Of a DNA stretch of 39,584 nt, positions 23,705 to 33,318 are shown piece by piece (position 1 is the first letter of the stretch; the number at the start of each line of letters is the position of its first letter). The notes beneath the pieces were generated by a model. That model worked only from the letters and a program-made list of their open reading frames with translations. It ran no database searches and was not told the DNA's origin. The translations under genes and the position numbers were made by a program. Origin of the DNA: Egibacteraceae bacterium (lineage in GTDB: Bacteria; Actinomycetota; Nitriliruptoria; Euzebyales; Egibacteraceae); NCBI GenBank assembly GCA_040905805.1, contig JBBDQS010000165.1, forward strand, positions 23,407 through 62,990, read 5' to 3'.

Positions 23705-25849
23705 TCAGGGGCGGCGCAGGGTGGTGGCCAGTCGGCGGGTGGTGCGGCGGTCGAGCAGCTCGTCGAGCAGGACGACCTGCCCGTCGGCGTCGGCCAGCGG
23801 CAGGCGCCAGTTGGGATAGGCGTCGGTGGTGCCCGGCAGGTTGGGCTGGCGGGTGTCGCCGACGGCGTCGCCCAGGGCGGCGGCCACCAGCAGCGCGGGG
23901 CCGGCGGCGAGGAAGGCGTGCATGGCCACGACCAGCTCCTCGACGGTGGGGTCGTGGCCGACCAGGCCCTCGGCGCGCAGCATGGCGGCCAGCTCGTCGC
24001 GCTGGCGGGCGGCGCGGGCCTGCTCGGCCGCGGGGTCGTCGAGCAGCCCGAGCTCGGCCTGGACGCGGACCGCCTCGCCGCGCCACCAGCCGGCGGCGGT
24101 GGGCAGGTCGTGGGTGGTGACGCTGGCCAGCGCCAGGGCGGGGTAGTCGGCGGCGGGCAGGGGCGCGCCGCCGTCGGCGGTGCGCTCGAAGTACAGCACG
24201 CTGGAGCCGAGCACGCCGGCGGCGCGCAGCCGCTCGCGCACGCCCTCCTCGACGGTGCCGAGGTCCTCGCCGACGACCAGCGCGCCGGCGCGCTCGGCCT
24301 CCAGAGCCAGCACGCCGAGCAGGGCGTCGCCGGGGTAGCGGACGTAGGTGCCGGCCGCGGCGGGGGCGCCCTCGGGGATCCAGTACAGGCGGAACAGGCC
24401 GAGGACGTGGTCCACGCGCAGGCCGCCGGCGTGGCGTGCGACGCCGGCGAGCATGTCGCGGAAGGCGGCGTAGCCGGTCGCGGCCAGGCGGTCGGGGCGC
24501 AGCGGCGGCAACCGCCAGTCCTGGCCCTGGCGGTTGAACGGGTCGGGTGGCGCGCCGACGGTGACGCTGCCCGCCAGGTCGTCCTGCAGCGCCCACGCGT
24601 CCGCCCCGCCCGGGTCCACGCCCACGGCGAGGTCGTGGACGATCCCGATGGGCATGCCCGCAGCCTCGGCGGCGGCCTGGGCGGCGGCCAGCTGGGTGTC
24701 GCACAGCCACTGCAGCCAGGTGTGGAAGGCCACGCGGTCGGCCAGCTCGCCGCGCGCGGGCTCCACGCCCGGGGCGGCGGGGTGGCGCAGGTCGGCGGGC
24801 CAGCCGGTGTAGGGGGTGCCGTGGCGCTCGGCGAGGGCGCAGAAGGTCGCGAAGTCGACCAGGCCCCGGCCCTCCTGGTCGCGGTAGTCGGCGAACGCCT
24901 GCTCGCGGGCGGGTGAGCGGGGGACGGTGTGCAGCAGCTCCAGGGCCCAGGTCTTGGCGCGGAAGACGGCGTCGCGGTCGATGCGGTCGGGTGTGCCGGC
25001 GTCGCGGGCGGCGCCGGCCAGCCCGGTCACGCGCTCGCGGACGCCCGGGTCGGCCGCGTCGAGCTCGTCGACGTCGGTGACCGACAGGTACAGCGGGTTG
25101 GAGAAGCGCCGGCTCGACGGGTAGTACGGCGAGGGCTCGACGGGCAGGACCGGGGTGGCGGCGTGCAGCGGGTTGGCCACCACGAAGCCGGCGCCGAGCT
25201 CGGCGGCGCTGCGGGCGGCGAGCCGGCCCAGGTCCGCCAGGTCGCCCATCCCCCAGCTGTCCGCCGAGCGCAGCGCGTACAGCTGCACCATCCAGCCCCA
25301 CTGGCGGTCGAGGTCCGCCGGAAGCGGGCACCGTCCCGGCGCCACGATCAGGTGCGCCTGCTCGTCGCCGGCCTCCAGGCGGTGGTAGCCGAGCGGCAGG
25401 TCGACGGGCAGCGCGCGGCCGGGGCCGGGCAGGTCGACGGGCGGCGCGCGGCCGGGGCCGGGCAGGTCGACGGGCGGCGCGCGGCCGGGGCGCGGCAGGT
25501 CGACGGGCAGCGCGCGGCCGGGGCGCGGCAGGTCGACGGTGGTGCCGTCCTCCAGGTGCACGCGTGCGGCGACGCCGTCGAGCGGGGGCAGACCGAACGT
25601 GTCGGGGTGCCCGCGGCGGGCGACGACGGTGGCCGGCAGACGGCGGGCCCGCGCCGCATCGGTGGCCCGTTGCAGCGATCCGGTGACCTCGTCCTCGGCG
25701 GCGGGGACGTCCATGGCCGCGAGCACGGCCCGCACCGTCGCGGCCGGGACGGTGACCGCCCGGCCGTCGGCGCCGGTGTAGGCGGTGGCGACACCGTGCC
25801 GCTGGGCGAGCTCGGCCAAGGCCGGGCTGACGTCAGCGGAGGCGGGCAT
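23705..25849 (-). CDS. malQ: 4-alpha-glucanotransferase (amylomaltase)
   Basis: 714-aa GH77 enzyme that transfers alpha-1,4-glucan segments (maltodextrin/glycogen metabolism). Catalytic motifs: nucleophile Asp in GGLRVDHVLGLFRL, acid/base Glu in VVGEDLGTV, and TTHDLPTAAGWWRG. The start at 25849 follows GGGGGAGG. An N-terminal extension with a beta domain (residues ~1-170) is typical of actinobacterial/MalQ-long enzymes. Inside it a 33-bp unit is repeated four times, adding VDLPRPGRALP-type 11-mers. It lies 43 nt downstream of sodN on the same strand, probably by chance of location. Confidence 0.93.
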   Translation of the reverse strand: MPASADVSPALAELAQRHGVATAYTGADGRAVTVPAATVRAVLAAMDVPAAEDEVTGSLQRATDAARARRLPATVVARRGHPDTFGLPPLDGVAARVHLEDGTTVDLPRPGRALPVDLPRPGRAPPVDLPGPGRAPPVDLPGPGRALPVDLPLGYHRLEAGDEQAHLIVAPGRCPLPADLDRQWGWMVQLYALRSADSWGMGDLADLGRLAARSAAELGAGFVVANPLHAATPVLPVEPSPYYPSSRRFSNPLYLSVTDVDELDAADPGVRERVTGLAGAARDAGTPDRIDRDAVFRAKTWALELLHTVPRSPAREQAFADYRDQEGRGLVDFATFCALAERHGTPYTGWPADLRHPAAPGVEPARGELADRVAFHTWLQWLCDTQLAAAQAAAEAAGMPIGIVHDLAVGVDPGGADAWALQDDLAGSVTVGAPPDPFNRQGQDWRLPPLRPDRLAATGYAAFRDMLAGVARHAGGLRVDHVLGLFRLYWIPEGAPAAAGTYVRYPGDALLGVLALEAERAGALVVGEDLGTVEEGVRERLRAAGVLGSSVLYFERTADGGAPLPAADYPALALASVTTHDLPTAAGWWRGEAVRVQAELGLLDDPAAEQARAARQRDELAAMLRAEGLVGHDPTVEELVVAMHAFLAAGPALLVAAALGDAVGDTRQPNLPGTTDAYPNWRLPLADADGQVVLLDELLDRRTTRRLATTLRRP
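25397..25539 (-). repeat. 33-bp in-frame tandem repeat inside malQ
   Basis: Four 33-bp units (starts at 25397, 25430, 25463, 25496) plus a partial fifth. Each contains CAGGTCGACGG and encodes VDLP(R/G)PGRA(L/P)P. The array adds Pro/Arg-rich 11-mers to the N-terminal beta domain of MalQ; the reading frame is preserved. Confidence 0.93.
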
Positions 25850-25892
25850 GGCGACCGGCCTCCCCCGCCGGGGTGGTGGCGATACCCGAGCT

Positions 25893-26336
25893 CTAGCCCG
25901 GGCGGCCGTTCGCACGGGTGGTGGCGGGGCCGTCGTTGGCCTTCCAGAGCTCATCGATCTGGTCGATCAGGTCGAGCATCTCCTTGGCCTTGGCCTCGTC
26001 CATGGAGGCCTTGACGGCCGACCCGGCCTTGACGGCCTTGTTGAACAGGGCGTGGTGCTCGGCGCCGTGCTTGTCGGGCTTGTACCAGTCGCTCCAGAGC
26101 ACGTCGATGTGGTGCTTGGCGAGCTCGGCGCGCTCCTCCTTGACGACCACGCAGCGCTGGCGGAAGACCTCGTCGTCGGAGGCGTGGTACTTGCCGATGA
26201 TCTTGAGGCAGGATTCAGCCTCGATGCGCGCCTGTTCGGGGTCGTAGACCCCGCAGGGGATGTCGCAGTGGGCGTGCACGGCCCGGGGCGCGTGCACACG
26301 GTCCAGGAGGGTCAGCAGGCGGGTGGGCAGGGGCAT
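25893..26336 (-). CDS. sodN: Nickel superoxide dismutase
   Basis: 147 aa. The nickel hook HCDIPCGVYDP starts at residue 23, preceded by a 22-residue propeptide (MPLPTRLLTLLDRVHA...), which must be removed so that His becomes the N-terminus and Ni ligand with the two cysteines. The rest (QARIEAESCLKIIGKY, WSDWYKPDKH) is the NiSOD four-helix bundle. AAGGAG lies before the ATG. Its maturation peptidase sodX is divergent, instead of directly downstream as is common. It removes superoxide in the cytoplasm. Confidence 0.96.
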   Translation of the reverse strand: MPLPTRLLTLLDRVHAPRAVHAHCDIPCGVYDPEQARIEAESCLKIIGKYHASDDEVFRQRCVVVKEERAELAKHHIDVLWSDWYKPDKHGAEHHALFNKAVKAGSAVKASMDEAKAKEMLDLIDQIDELWKANDGPATTRANGRPG

Positions 26337-26393
26337 CGGAGCACTCCTTTGACAGCAGAGGCGAACGAACACGCGAACGCTCGTGGCGGACTC

Positions 26394-26399
26394 TATAAC
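26394..26399. promoter_or_regulatory. Shared divergent promoter of sodN and sodX
   Basis: CTCTATAACC at 26391-26400 offers TATAAC as a plus-strand -10 and TATAGA on the minus strand, so the two divergent promoters would overlap. The 58 bp to the sodN start contain repeated GCGAACG (26361, 26373), a possible operator. I could not find a clear Nur box. Confidence 0.45.
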
Positions 26400-26483
26400 C
26401 CCTACCCACGGCACGAAACCGCATGCGGGCGACCATGGGGTGCCGCGGGCCGGGCGATCGCGGCGATCGCGGCCGCTCTGGCG

Positions 26484-26834
26484 GTGGCCGCCCACCAGCG
26501 GCTGGTCGTGCACGGGGCCAGCATGGCGCCGACCCTCGCGCCCGGCGACCGGCTGCTCGTGCGGCGCTGGCCGAGGGCGCTGGCGCCCGGCGTCCTGGTC
26601 GTGGTCGCCGACCCCCGCGCCCCCGGCCGGCTGGTGGTCAAACGGGTCGCGGCGGTGGACGCCGACGCGGTGACCGTGCTGGGCGACAACCCCGCGGCCA
26701 GCACCGACAGCCGCGCCTACGGGGCGCTGCCGCGATCCGCGGTGCGCGGCCGGGTGGTGTACCGCTACGCGCCCGCGGGCCGCGCGGGCCGCATAGCGCG
26801 CATAGCGCGCATGGGGCGCATGGGGCGCCCCTGA
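26484..26834 (+). CDS. sodX: S26-type peptidase for NiSOD maturation
   Basis: Signal-peptidase-like serine protease expected to remove the SodN propeptide. The nucleophile Ser is in VVHGASMAPTLAPGD, the general-base Lys in LVVKRVAAV, and LGDNPAASTDSRAYGALP is the typical third box. The C-terminus ends in repeated RIARMGR. The start is uncertain: GTG 26484 is the first credible in-frame codon, but a hydrophobic anchor (AIAAIAAALAVAA) is encoded just upstream in the same frame. An ATG at 26423 would reach it if one G of the run 26436-26439 were absent. So either a non-standard start or a frameshift is possible. Confidence 0.75.
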   Translation: MAAHQRLVVHGASMAPTLAPGDRLLVRRWPRALAPGVLVVVADPRAPGRLVVKRVAAVDADAVTVLGDNPAASTDSRAYGALPRSAVRGRVVYRYAPAGRAGRIARIARMGRMGRP

Positions 26835-26986: not shown

Positions 26987-28168
26987 CTAGCCGCGGGGGA
27001 CGGTGGCGGCGTCGCGGGTGCGCTCGGGCGCGTCGGCGACCCGCACGGACTCCGCAGGGGGCCACTCCGGTCCGGCGATGAACTCCGCGACCATCTCGCG
27101 GCACACGTCGTCGGGGAACTGGGCCGGGGGGGACTTCATGAAGTAGCTGGACGGGCCGAGCAACGGGCCGCCGATGCCGCGGTCCATCGCGACCCTGGCG
27201 CAGCGCACCGCGTCGATGACCACGCCGGCGGAGTTCGGCGAGTCCCAGACCTCGAGCTTGAGCTCGATGTTCAGGGGCACGTCGCCGAAGTTGCGTCCCT
27301 CCATGCGGATGTAGGCCCACTTGCGGTCCTCGAGCCACGGCACGTGGTCGCTCGGGCCGATGTGGATGTTGTCCTTGCCGATCCCGTTGGACATCTGGCT
27401 CGTGACCGACTGGGTCTTCGACACCTTCTTCGAGTCCAGCCGTTCGCGCTCCAGCATGTTCATGAAGTCCATGTTGCCGCCGAAGTTCAGCTGGTAGGTG
27501 CGGTCGATCGTGACCCCCCGGTCCTCGAACAGGCGCGTCAGCAGGCGGTGGGTGATCGTCGCGCCGACCTGGCTCTTGATGTCGTCACCGATGATCGGCA
27601 GCCCGGCCTTGGCAAAGCGCTGCGCCCACTCGGGGTCGGTGGCGATGAACGCGGGCAGGCAGTTGACCAGCGCGCACCCCGCGGCCAGCGCCTCACCGGC
27701 GTAGAACCGGGCGGCCTGCTCGCTGCCGACCGGCAGGTAGCACACGAGCACGTCGGCGCGGGCCTCGCGCAGGGCCGCCGCCACGTCGACGGGCTCGGCG
27801 TCTGACTCCTCGCACGACTCGGCGTAGAACTTGCCGAACCCGTCCATGGTCGGGCCCCGCAGCACCTCGACGCCCAGCGGCGGCACGTCCGCGAACTGGA
27901 TGGTGTTGTTGGGCGGGGCGACGATCGCCTCGGAGAGGTCGTGGCCGACCTTCTTCGCATCCACGTCGAACGCGGCCACGAACTCCAGGTCGCGCACGTG
28001 GTAGCCGCCGAGCTCGACGTGCATGAGCCCGGGGACGCGCGCCTCGGGGTCCGCGTCGGCGTAGTACTGCACGCCCTGGACGAGAGAGCTGGCGCAGTTG
28101 CCCACGCCGACGACCGCGACGCGGACTCCTCCGTGCCGGGTCGAGTTGCTCGGTGCAGGGCCACTCAT
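26987..28168 (-). CDS. ino1: Myo-inositol-3-phosphate synthase
   Basis: 393 aa. It converts glucose-6-phosphate to inositol-1/3-phosphate for phosphatidylinositol and mycothiol. NAD-binding [16 protein letters not shown] is at the N-terminus. The catalytic core shows [40 protein letters not shown] and [20 protein letters not shown]. Two starts are possible: ATG 28195 overlaps the padR stop, but ATG 28168 has AAGGAG 7 nt upstream and is preferred. Coupling to padR suggests joint control. The ino1-padR-DUF5318-ponA order is conserved in actinobacteria. Confidence 0.96.
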
Positions 28169-28191
28169 CAACGTCTCCTTGTCGGTACCGC

Positions 28192-28818
28192 TCATTGGTT
28201 CTGCAGTTCTGTGCGCACGATGTCGTCGCCGGGCGGGGCCGGGGCCGACGGGGGCGTCGGCGGAGGCGTCGGCGGGGGGTCGTGCTCGCCGCGCTCGGCC
28301 AGGGCGGTGCGCTCGGCGACGATCAGCTCGTCGAGCCAGGCGATGTCGGCGGCGGTCGTGTCCACCCCGTGGCGCACCAGCGACATCGTGTAGGTGTCCG
28401 CCCGGGTGACGCGCGCACGGCCGAGTGACCGGCGGCCCTCGTCCAGCTTGTCCTCCAGGTAGGCCTTGCGCCGCTCCAGCAGCTTGATGCGCATCTCGGG
28501 GCGCAGGTAGCGGAAGAAGGCCAGGCGCAGGGAGAACTTCTCCTGCTCGGCCCCGGTGCCCGCGCTCTCCTCGAGCAGCTCGAGGAACTCCTGCTCGCCG
28601 ATGTCGGTGATCCGGTACTCCTGCTTGCGCCGGGACGTCTGCGGCTCGGCGTGCACCTTCTCGGCCGCGCCGCGCTTCTCCAGGCGGCGCAGGGTGGGGT
28701 ACAGCGAGCCGAACGACACCGTCCAGAAGAGGCCGAGCTTCTGCCCGAGCTGCTTGCGCAGCTCGTATCCGTGCATCGGACGCTCTTTCAGCAAACCGAG
28801 GATCGCGAGCTCAAGCAT
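28192..28818 (-). CDS. PadR-family transcriptional regulator
   Basis: 208 aa. The N-terminal winged helix is typical: [20 protein letters not shown], then [14 protein letters not shown], and the wing with [17 protein letters not shown] long C-terminal helical dimerisation region follows, ending in a Pro-rich tail. It directly precedes ino1 with a 4-bp stop/start overlap, so it may control ino1. The five 13-bp iterons just upstream are a likely binding site for autoregulation. The ligand is unknown. Confidence 0.93.
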
Positions 28819-28885
28819 GGTGACGTCCTTGCGGGTCAGAGTCGGTCGGTTCGGTCGGTGCGGTCGGGCGGTGGTGCAGCTGGCC

Positions 28886-28950
28886 GATGCATCCGGACGA
28901 TGCATCGGGGCGATGTATCCCCACGATATAGCGGGATGATACATGCGCGC
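28886..28950. promoter_or_regulatory. Five 13-bp iterons between padR and DUF5318
   Basis: Exact 13-bp steps: GATGCATCCGGAC (28886), GATGCATCGGGGC (28899), GATGTATCCCCAC (28912), GATATAGCGGGAT (28925) and GATACATGCGCGC (28938). The first eight bases are palindromic GATGCATC or close variants, followed by a G/C-only linker. The fourth unit, read on the minus strand (GCTATATC), contains a possible padR -10. The array would let a dimeric regulator occlude the promoter. Confidence 0.8.
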
Positions 28951-28995: not shown

Positions 28996-29001
28996 TACAA
29001 T
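28996..29001 (+). promoter_or_regulatory. -10 element of the DUF5318 gene
   Basis: TACAAT matches the TANNNT consensus and ends 12 nt before ATG 29014, giving a very short leader. No clear -35 is seen 17 nt upstream. The iteron array lies about 45 bp upstream, so this promoter might also respond to the PadR protein. Confidence 0.5.
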
Positions 29002-29013
29002 CGGCACCCGACC

Positions 29014-29415
29014 ATGAAGGGGCAAATCGATTACCGGATGGCCAAGCGTGCGCTGGTGCGCAAGGTCTCGCGCGGCGCCGTGGCGCTCACCGACGTCTGC
29101 GACGCCCACCCCGAGCTGCTGCGCGCCGCCCGCAACATCGGCGAGGCCACGGAGCGGGCCTGCCCGATCTGCGCGCTCGCCGACGATCGGGCGGCGGTGC
29201 CCCGCGACCCGGCCAGCACGCTGCGGCTGGTGACCTACGTCTACGGTGACGACCTGAAGCGCAAGTCCGGCCAGGTGGTCTGGAACCGCGACGAGCTGGC
29301 GGGGCTGGCGGCGACCCACCGCTCGTTCACCGCCTACGTCGTGGAGGCCTGCCTGGTCTGCGGGTGGAACCACCTGGTGGAGAGCTACCTGCTCGGGCGG
29401 GCGCACGCCGGCTGA
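29014..29415 (+). CDS. DUF5318-family zinc-ribbon-like protein
   Basis: 133 aa. It begins with the conserved YRMAKRALVRKV basic segment, then two CxxC pairs far apart (ACPICAL near residue 50, ACLVCGWNH near 112), which probably form one zinc site. The start ATG 29014 is chosen because TACAAT (28996-29001) forms a -10 ending 12 nt before it. A longer frame runs upstream through the iterons and is unlikely. Homologues (e.g. Rv0049) sit next to ponA in mycobacteria. Function unknown. Confidence 0.82.
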   Translation: MKGQIDYRMAKRALVRKVSRGAVALTDVCDAHPELLRAARNIGEATERACPICALADDRAAVPRDPASTLRLVTYVYGDDLKRKSGQVVWNRDELAGLAATHRSFTAYVVEACLVCGWNHLVESYLLGRAHAG

Positions 29416-29533: not shown

Positions 29534-32038
29534 ATGAGCAGGCGGCCGCCCCCCGGCCGCTCGGACGGCACGAGGCAGCGCCAACCCGCTGCCAGACGTG
29601 GTCTCCGTGCGCGCGTCAGCCCCCGACCACGCCCCGCCCCTGGCGGTGCGTCGCGTGCGCGCGCCCGGACGCCGAGCGCCTCGCCTGCCCGCCCCGGGCC
29701 CCGGCGCGCGTCGCGGCCGACCCGGCGGCCGAGCCCGAACACGCCGCCGTCCGGGCGCACGGGCGCCGCTCGCGGTGGTCGCACCGGTGCAGGTCGGCCG
29801 GGCGATCGAGGCGGTGGCGGGCACGCCGCGCGGCGCGGGCGTGCGCCGCGTCCGGTGCCCCGGCGCCGACGGTGGTGCCGCCGGCCCATCGCGCTGCTGC
29901 TGCTCTTCCCGGGCCTGGCGCTGGCGTTCGCGGGGCTGGTGCTGTTCTTCTACTTCTTCACCTCGGTGCCGCTGCCGGAGGACATCGGCGAGGCCGGCAC
30001 CGTCATCTACGACGCCAACGGGACCGAGATCGCGACGCTGCAGGCCGAGTCCAGCCGTGCGGACATCGCGCTCGACGACCTGCCCCCGCACGTGATCGAC
30101 GCGGTGCTCGCCGCCGAGGACGCCGAGTTCTACTCCCACCCGGGCATCAGCCTGCCGGGGATCTTCCGCGCGGCGGTGGTGAACGTCACGAGCGGGCAGG
30201 TCAGCCAGGGCGGGTCGACGATCAGCCAGCAGTACATCAAGAACGTGACCACCGACGACGCCCGCACGGCGCTGCGCAAGGTCCGGGAGGCGGCGCTCGC
30301 GGTCAAGCTGGAGCAGCAGTTCACGAAGGACGAGATCCTCGAGTTCTACCTCAACTCCATCTACTTCGGCCGGGGCGCCTACGGCATCCAGGCCGCCGCG
30401 ACCGCCTACTACGGCAAGGACGCCGTCGACCTGTCCGGTGCCGAGGCGGTGCAGCTCGCCGGCATCATCCCCTCGCCCTCGCGCCTGGACCCGCTGGAGC
30501 ACCCGGAGGACGCGGAGCGGCGGTACCGCTACGTGCTGAGCCAGCTCATGACCCTCGGGCAGATCGAGGCCGCCGACGCGGGGATGCTCGCCGCGGAGAT
30601 GCCCGAGCCGCTGCCGGTGCGACCGATCCAGTTCCGCGACGCGCCGTTCTTCCTGGACCTCGTGCAGCGCGACCTCGCCGCGCACGTGGGTGTCGACCGG
30701 ATCTACCACGGCCTGGAGGTCACCACCACGCTGGACCTGGGGGTCCAGGCCGCCGCCGAGGCCGCGTACACCGACGTGCTCGAGGCCGGGGTGCCCGAGG
30801 GCGCGACCGGGGCCCTGGTCGCCCTGGACCCGGCCAGCGGGGGTGTCCGGGCCCTGGTCGGCGGCCCGGACCACGCCGCGGACCAGGTGAACATGGCGTT
30901 GGCCGCGCGCCAGCCCGGGTCGACGTTCAAGCCGTTCGCGCTCGCGGCCTGGGTCGAGCAGGGCAACTCGCCGGAGAGCTACTTCCCCGCGCCGGCGAGC
31001 TACGAGATGGCGGGCACCCGGGTGGACGGACGGCCCTACGAGATCAGCAACTTCGGCGGCGCCGCCTACGGCGAGCTGAGCCTGCGGGAGGCGACCTGGC
31101 GGTCGGTCAACACCGTCTACGGGCAGCTGTACGAGGAGGTCGGTGGGGAGCCCATGGTCGAGCTCGCCCGCCGGGCCGGCATCGACGGGGAGATGGACCC
31201 CCACGACTCCTCGACGGTGCTCGGCACCGCGGAGGTCTCCCCCTTGGAGCTCGCGGAGGCGTACAACACCTTCGCGGCCGGCGGCCTGCACCACGAGCCC
31301 ACCACCATCCAGCGCGTGGAACACGACGGCGAGGTCCTGTTCGCCGCGCCCGACAGCGCCGGGCGCGCCTTCAGCGAGCAGGTCGCCTGGACGGTGACCG
31401 ACGTGTTGCAGGGCGTGCTGCGCACCGGCACCGCTCGCGGCGCCGACCTGGGGCGGCCAGCCGCCGGCAAGACCGGGACCACCACCAACCACGCCGACGC
31501 GTGGTTCGCCGGCTACACCCCCCAGCTGACGGCGGTGGTGTGGATGGGCAACCGCGACAACAACCGCCGGATGCCCGGCGACCCGACCGGTGGGGACCTG
31601 CCCGCGGAGGTCTGGCACGCGTTCATGTCGACCGTGCACTCCGGGCTCGAGGTGGCGCGGTTCCCCACGGCCGGCGGCTCACTGCAGGTCGTCAACCCCA
31701 GCCCGTCCCCGGTGCCCACCACCCCGAGGTGCGGGACCGGTGAGATCCTGGCCGCCTCGGGCGGCAGGTGCGTCGACGCCGAGCCCGACCCGGACAGCGA
31801 GGACGACAGCGAGAACGACCGCGAGGACGACCGCGAGGACGACCCCGACGGCGACGACGGGCCGGCGCCGGCGCCGACCGCGCCCCCCACCTCACCGCCC
31901 GGTGACGACCCCCCGCCTCCGCCTCCGCCTCCGCCGTCCCCGACGCCGTCGCCCGCGCCCACCGCCCCACCGGGTGACCCGCCCGCCCCGCCGCCGGAGC
32001 CGGACCCCACCCCGGCGCCGGCGCCCCCGCCCGAGTAG
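29534..32038 (+). CDS. ponA: Class A penicillin-binding protein (PonA-like)
   Basis: 834-aa bifunctional peptidoglycan synthase. An Arg/Pro-rich cytoplasmic tail (1-118) precedes a membrane helix (119-142). The GT51 glycosyltransferase shows AAEDAEFYSHPG (Glu195), GGSTISQQYIKN and VKLEQQFTKDEILEFYLN. The transpeptidase motifs are GSTFK (Ser463), SVN (524-526) and KTGTT (646). An acidic then Pro-rich tail (from about 750) is extracellular. ATG 29534 has a poor ribosome site; a GTG near 29858, just before the membrane helix, is an alternative. The 3' end is duplicated in tandem, and the last 526 nt are also open on the opposite strand as part of the GT87 frame. Confidence 0.94.
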   Translation: MSRRPPPGRSDGTRQRQPAARRGLRARVSPRPRPAPGGASRARARTPSASPARPGPRRASRPTRRPSPNTPPSGRTGAARGGRTGAGRPGDRGGGGHAARRGRAPRPVPRRRRWCRRPIALLLLFPGLALAFAGLVLFFYFFTSVPLPEDIGEAGTVIYDANGTEIATLQAESSRADIALDDLPPHVIDAVLAAEDAEFYSHPGISLPGIFRAAVVNVTSGQVSQGGSTISQQYIKNVTTDDARTALRKVREAALAVKLEQQFTKDEILEFYLNSIYFGRGAYGIQAAATAYYGKDAVDLSGAEAVQLAGIIPSPSRLDPLEHPEDAERRYRYVLSQLMTLGQIEAADAGMLAAEMPEPLPVRPIQFRDAPFFLDLVQRDLAAHVGVDRIYHGLEVTTTLDLGVQAAAEAAYTDVLEAGVPEGATGALVALDPASGGVRALVGGPDHAADQVNMALAARQPGSTFKPFALAAWVEQGNSPESYFPAPASYEMAGTRVDGRPYEISNFGGAAYGELSLREATWRSVNTVYGQLYEEVGGEPMVELARRAGIDGEMDPHDSSTVLGTAEVSPLELAEAYNTFAAGGLHHEPTTIQRVEHDGEVLFAAPDSAGRAFSEQVAWTVTDVLQGVLRTGTARGADLGRPAAGKTGTTTNHADAWFAGYTPQLTAVVWMGNRDNNRRMPGDPTGGDLPAEVWHAFMSTVHSGLEVARFPTAGGSLQVVNPSPSPVPTTPRCGTGEILAASGGRCVDAEPDPDSEDDSENDREDDREDDPDGDDGPAPAPTAPPTSPPGDDPPPPPPPPPSPTPSPAPTAPPGDPPAPPPEPDPTPAPAPPPE

Positions 32039-33318
32039 GGCGCCCCGCCGGCCCGGCCGCCGGAGCCGGACCCCACCCCGGCGCCGGCGCCCCCGCCCGA
32101 GTAGGGCACCCCGCCCGCCGCCGTCCGCGCCGGCTGCCCCCGGACCGCCGCCAGGATCACCCAGACGAGCACGGCGGCGCGCACCACCACCGCCGCGCCG
32201 AACCACGCGTAGTCGGGCGCCGGTTCCAGACCGGTCAGGCCGCCGAGGAACGGGAAACGCACCGCGAACACCGCGACGTCGGCGGCCACGAACGCCACGA
32301 ACGGCCCGGCCCGGGGTAGGGCCAGGGCCATCAGCGGCAACAGGAACAGGCTGAACTGGGGCGAGTACACCTTGTTGGTGAGCAGGAACCAGGCCATGAG
32401 CGGCAGGACGAGCTCCCACCAGCGGGCCGGCTCGCGCCGGCGGGCGCCGACGACGGCGATGGCGGCCGCCCCGGCGACGAGCAGTGCCGCCGAGGCCGCG
32501 TTGACGGTCGGGACGGCGAACGCCGACCCGCGCAGCTGCTCGGCGAGGTACCAGAGGCTGTCCCAGTCGGCGGGCCGCTCCCGGTTGAGGTCCAGGAACC
32601 GCCGCCAGCCCTGCGGCGCGGTCACCAGGACGGGCAGGTTGACCGCGAGCCAGGCCGCGGCGGCGGCCCCGGCGTGCGCGGCGGCGTCGCGGCGCCGGCC
32701 CTGGGCGAGCCGGGTGGCGACCACCAGGGGCACGAGCAGCCCGGGGAACAGCTTGGCGGCGGCGCCGAGCCCCGCCGCCACGCCGGCCAGCCCGTCGCGG
32801 CCCCGCCGGTGGGCCACCACCCCGGCGACCAGCAGGGCGACGGGCACCGGGTCCCAGTTCACGAACGCCAGCAGGGCCAGCGTCGGCGCGCCCGCCCACC
32901 ACAGCAGTCGCCGGGGCGGCCGGCCGGCCGCTGCCAGCAGCCCCAGGGTGGCCAGGGCCGCGGCCGCGCCGAGCGCCGCGGTGGCGTGGAAGAACGCCGC
33001 CGCGCGCTGTGCGGGTGGGGTCAGGGCCGCCACCCGCGCCGCCGCCCACATCTGGGCGCCGGTCAGCACCGGGTACTCCACGGCGTGCTCGCGGCCGGGG
33101 TGGTCGGCGTAGAGGGGCGCGCCCTCGCTCAGCCCGCTGGAGAACCACAGGGCGTACACGTCGGTGTAGCACCACTGCGTGTACTGCTCACCGCCGGACC
33201 AGGCACCCTCGCCGAGGCAGCGCGCCTTCGACCACCACCCGAGCGCCAGGACGGCACAGCACACCACGACGACGCCGACGAGCACGGCGGGGCGCGATGA
33301 CGACGGCCGGGGGTGCAC
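31513..33318 (-). CDS. GT87-type (DUF2029) membrane mannosyltransferase-like protein
   Basis: 601 aa as read, from GTG 33318. About ten hydrophobic segments, with the extracytoplasmic acidic pair region near the start (WCYTDVYALWFSSG) and WDSLWYLAEQLRG, TNKVYSPQFSLFLLPL, AKLFPGLLVPLVVATRL, typical of polyprenol-phosphate-dependent glycosyltransferases of family 87. The recognisable domain ends near residue 405 (VWVILAAVRG, nt ~32105). The frame then continues without a stop for ~195 Gly/Ser-rich residues antisense to ponA. The original stop was probably lost in the 66-bp duplication. In mycobacteria the homologue follows ponA1 on the same strand (Rv0051); here it converges. Confidence 0.85.
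   Translation of the reverse strand: MHPRPSSSRPAVLVGVVVVCCAVLALGWWSKARCLGEGAWSGGEQYTQWCYTDVYALWFSSGLSEGAPLYADHPGREHAVEYPVLTGAQMWAAARVAALTPPAQRAAAFFHATAALGAAAALATLGLLAAAGRPPRRLLWWAGAPTLALLAFVNWDPVPVALLVAGVVAHRRGRDGLAGVAAGLGAAAKLFPGLLVPLVVATRLAQGRRRDAAAHAGAAAAAWLAVNLPVLVTAPQGWRRFLDLNRERPADWDSLWYLAEQLRGSAFAVPTVNAASAALLVAGAAAIAVVGARRREPARWWELVLPLMAWFLLTNKVYSPQFSLFLLPLMALALPRAGPFVAFVAADVAVFAVRFPFLGGLTGLEPAPDYAWFGAAVVVRAAVLVWVILAAVRGQPARTAAGGVPYSGGGAGAGVGSGSGGRAGGAPYSGGGAGAGVGSGSGGGAGGSPGGAVGAGDGVGDGGGGGGGGGSSPGGEVGGAVGAGAGPSSPSGSSSRSSSRSFSLSSSLSGSGSASTHLPPEAARISPVPHLGVVGTGDGLGLTTCSEPPAVGNRATSSPECTVDMNACQTSAGRSPPVGSPGIRRLLSRLPIHTTAVSWGV
31991..32122 (+). repeat. 66-bp tandem duplication of the ponA 3' end
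   Basis: CCGCCGGAGCCGGACCCCAC starts at 31991 and again at 32057, 66 bp apart. Both copies include the stop codon (TAG at 32036 and 32102). On the minus strand the duplication is read in the GT87 frame as PYSGGGAGAGVGSGSGG twice. Confidence 0.93.

Follow-up and report, generated by a model that had tools for sequence, protein, structure and literature searches.

Introduction

One operator comparable to the array reported here is that of cdPadR1 from Clostridium difficile, whose promoter carries two inverted repeats of a 21-bp motif. They lie 25 and 52 bp ahead of the gene, and one overlaps the -35/-10 region; on this promoter the protein yields several shifted complexes (PMC5050560). The form ATGT-N8-10-ACAT is typical of PadR operators but not universal, as cdPadR1 also departs from it (PMC5050560). 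The orthologous protein in mycobacteria is Rv0047c. It was earlier termed an uncharacterized PadR-like regulator suspected of controlling ino1 (PMC3899939), and in Mycobacterium smegmatis padR and ino1 drop together upon zinc addition (PMC7174638). In 2026, the structure 8JXK was named as M. tuberculosis NapM, in a study in which deletion of napM in M. smegmatis raised ino1 and derepressed inositol phosphate metabolism more than any other pathway; the authors also note that NapM is about 800-fold scarcer than classical nucleoid proteins (PMC13340245). The same deletion altered 1,512 genes (PMC13340245), so the effect on ino1 may be indirect. In addition, earlier work, as cited in PMC13340245, counts 573 ChIP-seq sites in M. 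tuberculosis and calls NapM a nucleoid-associated protein, which is at odds with a single-target regulator. In the literature searched, we found no operator for NapM, and nothing relevant joining the motif described below to PadR.

Results

A phased array in front of padR

The window, that is, the whole stretch of 39,584 nucleotides analysed here, comes from an Egibacteraceae bacterium. Pfam matches near the array are PadR (PF03551 and PF10400), DUF5318, inositol-1-phosphate synthase and a class A penicillin-binding protein. The genes and signals on which the argument depends are the following:

26987..28195, minus strand: ino1, inositol-3-phosphate synthase, directly downstream of padR; it begins over the padR stop or a little beyond it
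28192..28818, minus strand: padR, with a PadR N-terminal winged helix-turn-helix and Vir_act_alpha_C; orthologue of mycobacterial NapM (Rv0047c)
28827..28830, minus strand: likely ribosome-binding site of padR, AAGG, from the sequence
29014..29415, plus strand: DUF5318 gene, divergent; judged to lie outside the conserved context of the operator

The product of ino1 is the source of inositol for phosphatidylinositol, its mannosides and mycothiol. Two tandem repeats lie within the neighbouring genes. One of 33 bp (25394-25539, 4.4 copies, 95% matching) is in frame within the minus-strand ORF 23705-25954, which looks like a 4-alpha-glucanotransferase, and the repeat encodes repeats of DLPxPGRAxPV. 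The other, of 66 bp (31978-32128, 2.3 copies), covers the place where the penicillin-binding protein gene ends, proline-rich tail and stop codon included, and a change in copy number could therefore alter the C-terminus. Judged by eye only, the minus-strand product of 25893-26830, with its HCDIPCGVYDP, is presumably a nickel superoxide dismutase, and the small divergent signal-peptidase-like ORF adjoining it would presumably complete the usual sodN-sodX pair.

Between padR and the DUF5318 gene, five 8-bp units start at exact 13-bp steps (28886, 28899, 28912, 28925 and 28938), possibly preceded by a degenerate sixth:

28873..28880, in phase: possible degenerate sixth unit, GGTGCAGC; two mismatches, weak
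28886..28893, strand not applicable: unit 1, GATGCATC, padR-proximal, a perfect palindrome; the sister species is without it
28899..28906, strand not applicable: unit 2, GATGCATC, a perfect palindrome
28912..28919, reads GATACATC on the padR strand: unit 3, GATGTATC; kept in relatives
28925..28932, reads GCTATATC on the padR strand: unit 4, GATATAGC, over the likely padR +1; kept in relatives
28938..28945, reads CATGTATC on the padR strand: unit 5, GATACATG, overlapping the likely padR -10; kept in relatives

The perfect five-unit phasing that the original prediction had proposed is confirmed. Compared with GATRYATC, the phased units sum to two mismatches, a score that none of 20,000 mononucleotide shuffles of the region between the genes could equal. 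Self-similarity at 13 bp, scored without any consensus, reaches 87/130, whereas the best of 3,000 shuffles reached 66. Single words resembling GATGCATC are not enriched across the window; what is unique there is the phased pair. The same prediction had the GATGCATC palindrome repeating with the last two units diverging; only units 1 and 2 carry it perfectly. The padR leader beside the array also holds short repeats of GGTCGGT type (28841-28873), detected by a tandem repeat finder and absent from the aligned relatives.

A putative operator motif is conserved at all sampled padR-ino1 promoters

Related genomes and the named genome collection supplied PadR relatives, and about 100 genomes from across the phylum supplied DNA upstream of ino1; padR stands directly upstream of ino1 in 72 of 96 ino1 regions. 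Once near-identical leaders were removed, 122 padR-ino1 leaders from many families of Actinomycetota were available, with M. tuberculosis represented by genomes whose NapM is 97-98% identical, and with the Streptomyces loci L072-L110 left out, as they encode other PadR proteins without ino1. Every one of the 122 leaders contains TATCG-N3-CGATA, exactly in 95 and with a single mismatch in 27, where shuffled leaders give about 0.02 loci at that threshold. Conservation in relatives, which had been proposed as a check on the array, thus holds at every padR-ino1 promoter of the set. The motif also follows padR closely: its long form is found at 135 of 141 loci with padR and at 0 of 24 where ino1 has no adjacent padR (Fisher P about 1e-23, relatedness being ignored and some genomes being counted twice). 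The six padR loci without the long motif each have a perfect core, and four of them encode NapM-like proteins.

The information in these leaders peaks on the TATCG...CGATA core, which is 13 bp long, and GATATATC is what forms where the right half of one core runs into the left half of its neighbour, so that an array with a 13-bp step is a row of abutting dyads. Pairs of GATRYATC-like units 13 bp apart occur 154 times in the 122 leaders against 0.05 expected, with echoes at 26, 39 and 52 bp and minor classes at 17 and at 30 or 31 bp; dyads that do not abut are shifted by about 30 bp. The longest phased runs comprise two units at 55 loci, three at 39, four at 19, five at 3 and six at a single locus, the window itself if its weak sixth unit is counted. 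Unit number therefore ranges from 2 to 6 across the phylum, most arrays having two or three. The minimal natural element is one dyad of two octamers rather than a single repeat, and lengths form a continuous range with the window at its long end. The dyads of the window differ from the TATCG-N3-CGATA core by 1-3 bases, a point against the operator reading given below. Another long phased array precedes padR in a distant family (L271:660-725, genome G187), with strong end units and a weaker middle one.

The element is local. In the 3.6-Mb genome of the window, GATRYATC-N5-GATRYATC with up to two mismatches matches only in and at the edge of the array, so that no other promoter shows a paired site; the reversed control pattern has no match in this genome. 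At up to two mismatches, neither single nor double sites were found elsewhere in this genome, so the search for single sites at other promoters suggested with the original prediction reveals no such regulon there. Across 198 genomes, 62 of 65 sites are located at padR-ino1, and the reversed control gives no site. The other three (in G079, G089 and G232), each with one mismatch, lie away from any PadR gene and are probably due to chance. In 6 of 7 genomes of 7-10 Mb, even the bare 13-bp core has just one occurrence, the one at padR-ino1; some NapM-bearing genomes have a few extra copies of it.

The conserved units lie over the probable padR-ino1 promoter

A consensus promoter scan of the window gave no hit and its -35 is not recognisable, so the -10 of padR-ino1 is placed from its relatives:

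28936..28941, minus strand: probable padR-ino1 -10, TATCAT

The promoters of the closest relatives read TTGACG-N16-TAGCAT (L005) and TTGAAC-N17-TATCAT (L007), and the TAGCAT or TATCAT overlaps the counterpart of unit 5 of the window. More generally, recognisable TTGAC boxes lie 5-41 bp upstream of the first unit, so that the dyads occupy the -35/-10 spacer, coincide with the -10 or fall at +1; the clearest case is TTGACA-tatatatcgaatcgata-TATAGT (L045) and its relatives. An inverted repeat is hence present over the regulator's own promoter, that of the window being read by comparison.

An alignment of eight related promoters has its invariant columns in units 5, 4 and 3, with one stray column in unit 2. 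The two perfect copies of GATGCATC, units 1 and 2, show no conservation as units. The degenerate-looking units are therefore the constrained ones. The last two units do diverge from GATGCATC, as originally described, but nothing supports reading this as decay.

The adjacent PadR is an orthologue of NapM

The protein encoded next to the array belongs to the PadR family, with 70.3 bits to the N-terminal PadR winged helix-turn-helix (PF03551, cut-off 27) and 32.3 bits to Vir_act_alpha_C (PF10400, cut-off 22.4), the dimerisation domain of the larger PadR subfamily. Its best solved relative is PDB 8JXK, which it resembles over its full length (E 2.7e-33, 41% identity over 174 aa); together with ino1 directly downstream, this identifies it as an orthologue of NapM/Rv0047c. 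Its sequence also matches other PadR structures. The recognition helix is nearly invariant, with S35, G37, Y40 and P41 in 122/122 proteins, and so matches the constancy of the operator site.

Discussion

The array is very probably a multi-site operator of the adjacent PadR, through which padR-ino1 would be subject to negative autoregulation. The original prediction of a cooperative PadR operator fares well in its first part, the assignment to PadR being very probable given the 122/122 leaders with the motif and the 0/24 loci without padR that have it; cooperative multi-site binding is plausible. A PadR dimer would read TATCG-N3-CGATA, in full GATRYATCG-NNN-CGATRYATC, and head-to-tail dyads whose outer halves fuse would build a lattice with a 13-bp step, roughly 1.24 helical turns. 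The five octamers of the window would then provide four abutting dyads, centred at about 28896, 28909, 28922 and 28935. This lattice extends over the likely -10 and +1 of padR-ino1 and into the start of the leader, a placement in which bound PadR would block RNA polymerase. Repression would follow from occupancy of the units, and extra units may raise occupancy or cooperativity. By acting on padR together with ino1, such autoregulation could tune the inositol supply.

Other readings of the array have to be weighed against this one. It had been proposed that the array coordinates both divergent transcription units, PadR also controlling DUF5318-ponA and tying inositol lipids to wall synthesis. 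The divergent arrangement is indeed common (62 motif loci), and in M. smegmatis the loss of napM lowers peptidoglycan synthesis genes and increases carbenicillin sensitivity (PMC13340245). However, at 70 loci without DUF5318 in the stretch examined the motif is equally present (both counts include some genomes twice), and the distance from array to DUF5318 varies from 52 to 777 bp. In the window, the array lies at least about 63 bp upstream of the likely DUF5318 start and sits on the padR promoter, away from the likely promoter of the divergent gene:

28996..29001, plus strand: likely DUF5318 -10, TACAAT, 12 bp before the ATG and about 50 bp beyond the array; TACACT conserved in relatives

The closeness of TACAAT/TACACT to the start codon suggests that the DUF5318-ponA transcript is leaderless or nearly so. 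We find the proposed coordination unsupported and consider it unlikely; from the distribution of the motif, the predicted operator is one that belongs to padR-ino1, and nothing points to control of DUF5318-ponA.

A different DNA-binding protein could also use the array, for instance a LacI-type inositol regulator such as IpsA, which controls corynebacterial ino1 and for which, in M. tuberculosis, a site falls within Rv0047c (PMC3899939). Yet the IpsA-controlled ino1 of corynebacteria stands without padR (PMC3899939), while our motif is present where padR precedes ino1 and absent where it does not, and the recognition helix of PadR is nearly invariant along with the site, all of which makes this reading very unlikely. 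That the units work in the leader RNA, as palindrome hairpins instead of protein-binding DNA, is harder still to believe: most units of the window do fall within the presumed leader, but in other lineages, such as that of L045, the dyad lies between -35 and -10 and is not transcribed. As for replication-type iterons, the term used in the original prediction, short and exactly phased direct repeats are what would recommend them, and we regard their probability as close to nil. The context is chromosomal and that of padR-ino1 throughout, no Rep gene was seen nearby, unit count varies from 2 to 6 across the phylum and inter-unit spacing may also be 17, 30 or 31 bp. The minimal recurrent element is a dyad of two half-sites, and the 13-bp step is the half-site spacing inside the TATCG-N3-CGATA dyad, so the name finds no support.

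Returning to the PadR operator, a bolder version would make the phased array a lattice for side-by-side dimers of PadR/NapM type, each palindromic octamer being shared by adjacent dimers; a short nucleoprotein filament would then act as the switch of the promoter. What has been reported as bridging and aggregation by NapM would be this same activity away from its target, and the ancestral job of the protein would be local control of ino1. We hold this version to be doubtful, although less so than the alternatives above. In either version, a regulator that has been called uncharacterized, or else nucleoid-associated and a DnaA antagonist, gains a precise predicted site and a single ancestral target, and this site bears on the choice between a global role for NapM on the chromosome and one as a dedicated repressor. 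Arrays of 2-6 units in otherwise equal promoters also constitute a natural series for studies of cooperativity.

PadR operators as such are a known kind of element. What appears to be undescribed in the literature searched is the half-site, together with the strictness of the 13-bp lattice and a link to ino1 throughout the phylum. With canonical PadR/LmrR operators (PMC3506622, PMC5050560), the element shares a short A/T-rich inverted repeat, a winged-helix dimer as its probable reader and predicted autoregulation. It differs in that the canonical sites are ATGT-N8-10-ACAT, whereas here the inner TATCG/CGATA holds most of the information: the dyads of the window are of TATCG-N3-CGATA type, and the ATGT/ACAT of relatives (GATGTATCGAGTCGATACATC) has a spacer of 11. 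The operator of cdPadR1 likewise consists of tandem inverted repeats on the promoter of its own PadR-family gene, but follows TACT-N11/12-AGTA, with a spacing reported as flexible and two sites 27 bp apart (PMC5050560); the present operator has instead TATCG/CGATA half-sites at a strict 13 bp, octamers shared by neighbouring dyads, up to 5-6 units and the link to ino1. The IpsA operators at corynebacterial ino1 are also palindromic and serve ino1 transcription, but IpsA is of LacI type, responds to myo-inositol and acts where no padR lies beside ino1 (PMC3899939). Finally, NapM (Rv0047c/MSMEG_6903, 8JXK) is an orthologous dimeric PadR with ino1 as its neighbour, and its deletion derepresses ino1. 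It differs in its description, which is that of a nucleoid-associated protein with many ChIP sites and of a DnaA antagonist, and in its DNA: where PadR is 97-98% identical to 8JXK, the genome carries one dyad in place of an array.
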